A stretch of 42,941 nucleotides of DNA, from assembly GCF_000336675.1 (NCBI RefSeq), contig NZ_AOMB01000044.1, forward strand, positions 1 through 42,941, in the 5' to 3' direction. Within the stretch, counting starts at the first letter, position 1. Every line of letters starts with the position of its first letter. This document shows positions 40,633 through 42,941 of the stretch, piece after piece. The notes beneath the pieces are model-generated. The model did no database searches. It saw only the letters and a list, made by a program, of their open reading frames with translations, and was not told the origin of the DNA. Source of the stretch: Halococcus hamelinensis 100A6. GTDB taxonomy: Archaea > Halobacteriota > Halobacteria > Halobacteriales > Halococcaceae. Made by a program: the position numbers and the translations under genes.

Positions 40633-42919
40633 ATGAGCGGCGAAGGGACCGGCAGCGAGACGGCCGCCGCGACCGGCGAGCCCCGCGAGAACCCAACCGG
40701 ACCCGGTTCGGAAACCGCCTGGCGCGACGTCTTCGGCTACGAGGAACCCTACGAGAACCAGGCCGACGCGATCGAGACCGCGATCGAGACGGGCGAGCAG
40801 GGTGGCTACCTCGTGATGGAGGGGGCCTGCGGGACCGGCAAGACGATGGCGGCGCTCACCGCCGCCGGAACCCTCCTCCGCGAGACCGACCGCTACGACA
40901 ACGTCCTCGTCGTGACGCCGGTCAAACAGCAGCGCCAGCAGTTCATCGAGGACCTCAGAGCCATCAACGAGAGCGTCGACGAGCCCTTCGACGGGCTGGC
41001 GCTGGTCGGCAAAGCCGACCTCTGTCCCTACGAGCGCGTCGGCGCGTTCGAGGAGAGTACACAAGAGGCCTGCGAGGAGCTCCGGGATCACACTTCGGGG
41101 CTGGTCGCGCACGGCGACGGCGGCGGTGAGGGCGAGGTCTGGTGGGACTCGGCGCGTGCCGGCGAGCTCGTCTCCTCGGCACGGGTCGACGCCGACACCT
41201 GGAACACGCTCGACGAGAACCTCACGACGGCGGGCCACACCGCACCGTACCCCACCGCACGGCCGACCGCGCCCGACTCGCTGGCCGAGGGCGACCACGC
41301 ACCCACCTTCTGCCCGTTCGAGGCCGACTGGTACGCGCGTGACAAGTCGGTCCCCGTGAGCTTCGACGCCGGCGAGGGGAACGTCGTCACGACGGACGAA
41401 CTCCTCGCGGGGTCGGTTCCGGCGGGCACCTGCCCGCACCGCTCGATGGGGACGCTGCTCGACGACGCCGACGTGATCGTGGGGAACTACACCCACCTCT
41501 TCGACCCGCGAACCCGCGCGCTCACCGACGGCGCGGTCGACGACCGGACCCTCGTGATCGTCGACGAGGCCCACCGATTGGAGGGGAGGGTTCGGGAGAT
41601 GCTGAGCGATCGAGTGGGGATCCACTCGCTCCGGCGGGCGCGCAACGACGTCCAGTACCTCCGCACGCGGGCGGGTCAGTCGCGCGAGCACCGCGCCCAG
41701 GTCGCCGAACTGCTCGACCCCCACGAGGTCGGCACCGACTCGCTCGAACGCGTCGAGGCGTTCTTCGACGAGGCCATCGACTGGCTCGACGACCGCGTGG
41801 AGACGTATCTCGCGAACGAATACGGGAACCTCGACCGGGCGGCGGGCGACCTCCCGGACGACATCGAGATCCCGCTTCGCGACCCCGAGGTCGAGGAACG
41901 CGACGAGTTCTCGGAGTGGGCACGCGAGGCGGGCTACTCGGCCTCCTTCTGCAAGTCGCTCCACTCGGTCGGTGCGGCGGTCGAGGACGTGCTGGGGACC
42001 GTCGCGCCGGAGCGCTCGTGCGTCTGCGGCGACGTCGGCCGGCTCGTCGCGCGGTGGTGGACCCGCGACCACGCCTCCTACTTCCGGGAGGTCACGCTCA
42101 CGAGCACCGACCGCGAGCATCTGGAGGGCTGGGAGCGCCACTACACCGCCGCGCTGTTCTGCTATGACTGTCTGCCCGCCGAGGACCTGAAGGCGCGCTT
42201 CGCGAACCTCGGCGGCGGCGTGCTGATGAGCGCGACGCTCGAACCGATCGACGTCTTCCGTGAGTGCGTGGGGCTCGACGGGGTCGCGGTCGAGGATTCG
42301 GACGGGACGGACGACGAAACGGACGAAGGGACGGACGAGGAGGCGGCCGAACCCCGCCCGGTGGTCGAGCGGACCTACGACCTGACGTTTCCCCCGGAGA
42401 ACCGGGCGAGCTGGGTGGTCGACGCGCCGGCGTTCACCGCCCGAAACCGCGGCCCGCCGACGGAGGGCAACGACGTTCGCGAGACCTACGCCTACGCGCT
42501 CCGCGAACTCGCGCGGAACCCCGGCAACGTCCTGCTCTGTCTCCCGAGCTATCGCGAGGCGGCGTGGGCGGGCGAGCGCCTCGCGGAGGCGCTCGACAAA
42601 CCCGTACTCGTCGACGAGCCGTCGAGCGACGCGGCGACCGAGGCGCTCAAACGCGAGTTCTTCGCGGGCGGGGGCAAGGTGCTCGTGACCTCGACCCGGG
42701 GAACCCTCACGGAGGGCGTGGACTACGACGGCGACAAACTCGGGACGTGTGCGGTGGTCGGGGTGCCGCTCGTCAACGTGGCCTCACCCCGGATCCGGGC
42801 GGTGCGGCGGGCCTACGGGGCCGCCTTCGACGAATCGAAGGCGTTCCGGTACGCGCTCACGGTGCCCGCGGTCCGGCGGGCGCGTCAGGCCATCGGTCGC
42901 GTCATCCGCGGGCCCGAGG
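40633..42919 (+). CDS. XPD/Rad3/DinG-like Fe-S DNA helicase (3' truncated)
   Basis: Superfamily 2 helicase; about 762 residues are visible and the frame is open to the edge, without a stop. Walker A GACGTGKT is at 64-71, DEAH at 311-314, and motif VI QAIGRVIRG at 752-760. Four cysteines between motifs Ia and II (Cys131, Cys147, Cys227, Cys267) have the arrangement of the XPD iron-sulfur cluster. It probably unwinds DNA 5' to 3' in repair. Three acidic, low-complexity residues-runs near 557-572 (TDDETDE, TDEEAAE) form an insert. Genomic coding ends at 42919, where adapter sequence begins; the last few codons after that point are artefactual. Confidence 0.92.
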
Positions 42920-42938
42920 CTGTCTCTTATACACATCT
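42920..42938 (+). other. Tn5 mosaic end: sequencing-library adapter remnant
   Basis: CTGTCTCTTATACACATCT is the exact 19-base Tn5 mosaic end used in Nextera-type tagmentation. It begins inside the helicase gene and lies three bases from the window's end, so it is almost certainly untrimmed adapter at a contig end and not a transposon in the organism. Confidence 0.95.
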
Positions 42939-42941
42939 CTG

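Follow-up and report, generated by a model that had tools for sequence, protein, structure and literature searches.

The window, by which we mean the whole stretch of 42,941 nucleotides from Halococcus hamelinensis 100A6 that was analyzed, covers positions 1 to 42,941 of a scaffold of 49,487 bases (G000:C44:1-42941, hereafter C44). At its 3' edge lies, on the forward strand, a gene for a putative XPD/Rad3-like helicase (DEAD_2 / Helicase_C_2), whose genuine part spans positions 40633..42919. The assignment is based on Pfam profile matches above the cut-offs (DEAD_2, 9e-14; Helicase_C_2, 1.8e-19) and on the comparison with relatives. This part contains 762 full codons and a single base (42919) of codon 763, and the C-terminus falls outside the window. 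Directly downstream, at 42920-42938 on the forward strand, stands an exact copy of the Tn5 mosaic end (ME), CTGTCTCTTATACACATCT, matching at 19 of 19 bases with 0 mismatches and followed by CTG at 42939-42941; the window terminus thus reads ...GGGCCCGAGG CTGTCTCTTATACACATCT CTG. The first-pass annotation, made from the letters of the window, had described an exact 19-base mosaic end followed by CTG and had considered it an untrimmed tagmentation adapter. The match itself agrees with the description, and the adapter origin is upheld by the ME together with the Epicentre-type flanks seen at other copies (see below).

Given that the reading frame remains open across the 19-mer, one could imagine a chance match within natural coding sequence, a reading with a vanishingly small probability. 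From the base composition of the window, about 1e-8 matches are expected in the window and about 1e-6 in the genome, and none of 100 shuffles was positive (0/100). A search of the whole window at up to 3 mismatches returned no ME match besides 42920-42938, and the reversed control pattern had 0 matches across the 391 genomes of the class. Chance is therefore ruled out by the expected numbers and by the shuffle and reversed-pattern controls, and the outward-pointing copies found elsewhere in the genome already exclude it, as does the conserved sequence, wholly different, that relatives carry at the position of the 19-mer.

The window is cut at a single N (C44:42942), after which come a G and a second ME in the opposite orientation (AGATGTGTATAAGAGACAG) at C44:42944-42962; beyond C44:42962, ordinary high-GC sequence follows. 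CTGNG is the sole content between the two facing MEs of C44:42920-42962. The window edge is a single-base scaffold gap flanked by adapters, as read directly from C44, and not the contig end that the first-pass annotation had assumed, since C44 extends past this one N to its full length.

In the closest relative, G006, the helicase gene is 93% identical, the genome has no ME, and the helicase tail reads GRVIRGPE-EVGVRAFVDERYTPDAPRSVADCL-PDAEREEFVTLTPMFVETVVDRFGTEHPEFGG*. Comparison of the helicase C-terminus with homologues, proposed earlier as a check, showed that the helicases of relatives extend about 50-60 residues beyond RGPE, with sequence that is conserved and wholly unlike the adapter-encoded residues. 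To the right of the gap, C44 picks up the helicase exactly at PDAEREEF, with the true tail running from C44:42963, and both flanks of the gap resume in frame relative to G006. Between them, 70 contiguous G006 coding bases have no counterpart in C44, which has 43 bases there (19+3+N+1+19), a missing segment that is directly visible in this comparison. C44 has thus lost about 70 real helicase bases and carries 43 artefactual ones in their place. Since 70 and 43 both leave a remainder of 1 modulo 3, the reading frame was kept open by accident, and the open chimeric frame can be followed directly in the translated scaffold, which yields an 813-residue protein, ...RGPE-AVSYTHLXEMCIRDS-PDAEREEF.... 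The damage lies directly after QAIGRVIR, which we take to be helicase motif VI. The false residues that had been suspected in the helicase frame are indeed there, AVSYTHL being derived from the adapter within the window. As for the further suggestion that the true gene continues outside the contig, it does continue past the adapter, but its tail is found on the same scaffold. A second, paralogous DEAD_2-type helicase is apparently split as well, between G000:C8:49730-50296 and G000:C9:452-1306, and the C8 end bears a partial mosaic end.

Throughout the genome, 31 exact MEs were identified, 18 of them at contig ends (within about 20 bases) and the remaining 13 at N runs. The orientation is outward, with the adapter outside the genomic insert, in 31 of 31. 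A 12-base probe recovered three additional, shorter copies (C8 end, C21 end and C25 start), so that the adapter scars in this genome amount to 31 full and 3 shorter MEs. Three internal junctions carry the genomic flank twice, once on each side of adapter and N, over 20 bases in C15 (L010, near 15956), 45 bases in C33 (L025, near 55934) and 79 bases in C41 (L029, near 34792). These repeats are overlaps that were left unmerged owing to the adapter, so that the three scaffold joins contain false duplications. Separately, the first 600 of the 852 bases of contig C1 (G000:C1:1-600) read as N.

Epicentre and Illumina Nextera adapters share the ME, and its flank is what tells them apart. The 19-base mosaic end of Illumina Nextera and Nextera XT is identical to that of the window; in those kits the ME is followed by CCGAGCCCACGAGAC or GACGCTGCCGACGA and not by CTGA, whereas the flanks in the window's genome are of the CTGA type, in contrast to the Illumina Nextera flank CCGAGCCCACGAGAC that is present in the relative G005. 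Where sequence outside the ME is retained at other copies in the genome, it reads CTGATGGCGCGAGG or CTGAGCGGGCTGGCA. Reverse-complemented, the two sequences equal the 3' ends that PMC3699833 gives for Epicentre Nextera adaptor 1 (...GCCTCCCTCGCGCCATCAG) and adaptor 2 (...GCCTTGCCAGCCCGCTCAG). Against these adaptors (GCCTCCCTCGCGCCATCAG / GCCTTGCCAGCCCGCTCAG + AGATGTGTATAAGAGACAG), the ME is exact and the flanks of the other copies match both, up to 15 bases, whereas the window site keeps only the outer CTG, which is compatible with either. CTG is the start of the reverse complement of TCAG, and in the old Epicentre Nextera adaptors it is TCAG that stands before the ME; the Epicentre-type flanks at the other copies indicate that the CTG of the window, its first three outer-adapter bases, is adapter as well. 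The adapter, to judge from these flanks, is therefore the Epicentre Nextera one with the TCAG end and not the present-day Illumina Nextera, and all 22 final bases of the window (42920-42941) are laboratory adapter, not biology.

The ME was created in the laboratory as a hybrid of the outside and inside ends of IS50/Tn5. As it is also a functional site for the Tn5 transposase, and as C44:42920-42962 holds two MEs facing each other, a real insertion of IS50/Tn5 or of an engineered mini-Tn5 into the helicase gene, already present in the living strain, has to be weighed. Such an insertion is extremely unlikely. The natural IS50 ends and a Tn5-type transposase domain were sought across the whole genome and, MEs apart, were not found: the Tn5-type DNA-binding domain PF14706 is absent from the genome, while it was detected in the E. 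coli positive control, the IS50 inside end is absent at up to 3 mismatches, and the outside-end matches are the MEs themselves. Thus, although the natural ends are the parents of the hybrid ME, neither of them is present in this genome. Moreover, nothing except CTGNG separates the facing MEs, the 9-bp target duplication expected from a single transposition event is absent, as the left flank (GGCCCGAGG) and the right flank (CCCCGACGC) differ, and all 31 ME copies break off at a contig end or an N. With no transposase domain, natural IS50 ends or target duplication, a natural Tn5 insertion can be dismissed for practical purposes, and the view that a genuine mini-Tn5-like element bounded by mosaic ends interrupted the helicase gene of the sequenced strain is hardly tenable.

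A tagmentation adapter could also have been left by a mate-pair (circularization) junction rather than by short-insert read-through. In Nextera mate-pair junctions, ME abuts ME directly, without an outer adapter. The facing MEs of C44 resemble such later Nextera mate-pair junctions, and 6-kb mate pairs were additionally made in a large haloarchaeal project (PMC4230888). However, CTGNG stands between the MEs here, unlike in the directly abutting ones, most ME copies in the genome are single, and many run on into Epicentre outer adaptors, so that a mate-pair origin is very improbable.

The adapter is not restricted to this assembly. At least one exact ME was found in 41 of the 391 genomes of the class, about one in ten, and a relative of the same genus, Halococcus thailandensis JCM 13552 (G009), also bears many. 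When the first ME site was compared in eight ME-bearing genomes, the window's included, seven had either an Epicentre-type flank or none that could be read. The eighth, G005, of the same genus, is a separate case with the later Illumina Nextera flank (for example, L059 on contig C3, 33890-33908). For several of the listed G005 copies, the distance to the contig start is about 150-250 bases, which suggests that longer adapter stretches were assembled. The large haloarchaeal project mentioned above used PCR-free Epicentre Nextera libraries and A5 assembly (PMC4230888). Considering its genus and adapter type, the window's genome probably comes from that project. A5 builds contigs with IDBA, scaffolds them with SSPACE and screens for Nextera adapters with Tagdust (PMC3441570); given this screening, trimming would have failed only in part. 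When the literature was searched for the characteristic peptides encoded by the adapter, only unrelated uses of the letters were returned.

Taken as a whole, positions 42920-42941 are almost certainly the mosaic end plus three Epicentre Nextera adaptor bases, an ordinary assembly artefact. The identity of the adapter is directly observed, and its most plausible cause would be read-through plus incomplete trimming. Where a tagmented insert was shorter than the read, sequencing would have run through the insert into the adapter, part of which would have remained after incomplete screening. The assembler may then have extended contigs a few bases into the adapter and ended them there, and the scaffolder would have linked such a contig, across a single N, to a neighbor terminating in the opposite adapter. 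C44 consequently has adapter-N-adapter where about 70 real helicase bases belong.

The relevance of this finding is one of data quality only, as the adapter scar falsifies the end of a helicase gene. Gene callers can report a seemingly intact helicase of 813 residues with the false stretch AVSYTHLXEMCIRDS, a protein that lacks the conserved segment directly after helicase motif VI. With more than 30 scars in this genome and 41 of 391 genomes across the class containing the ME, such stretches should be masked in comparisons of haloarchaeal proteins.
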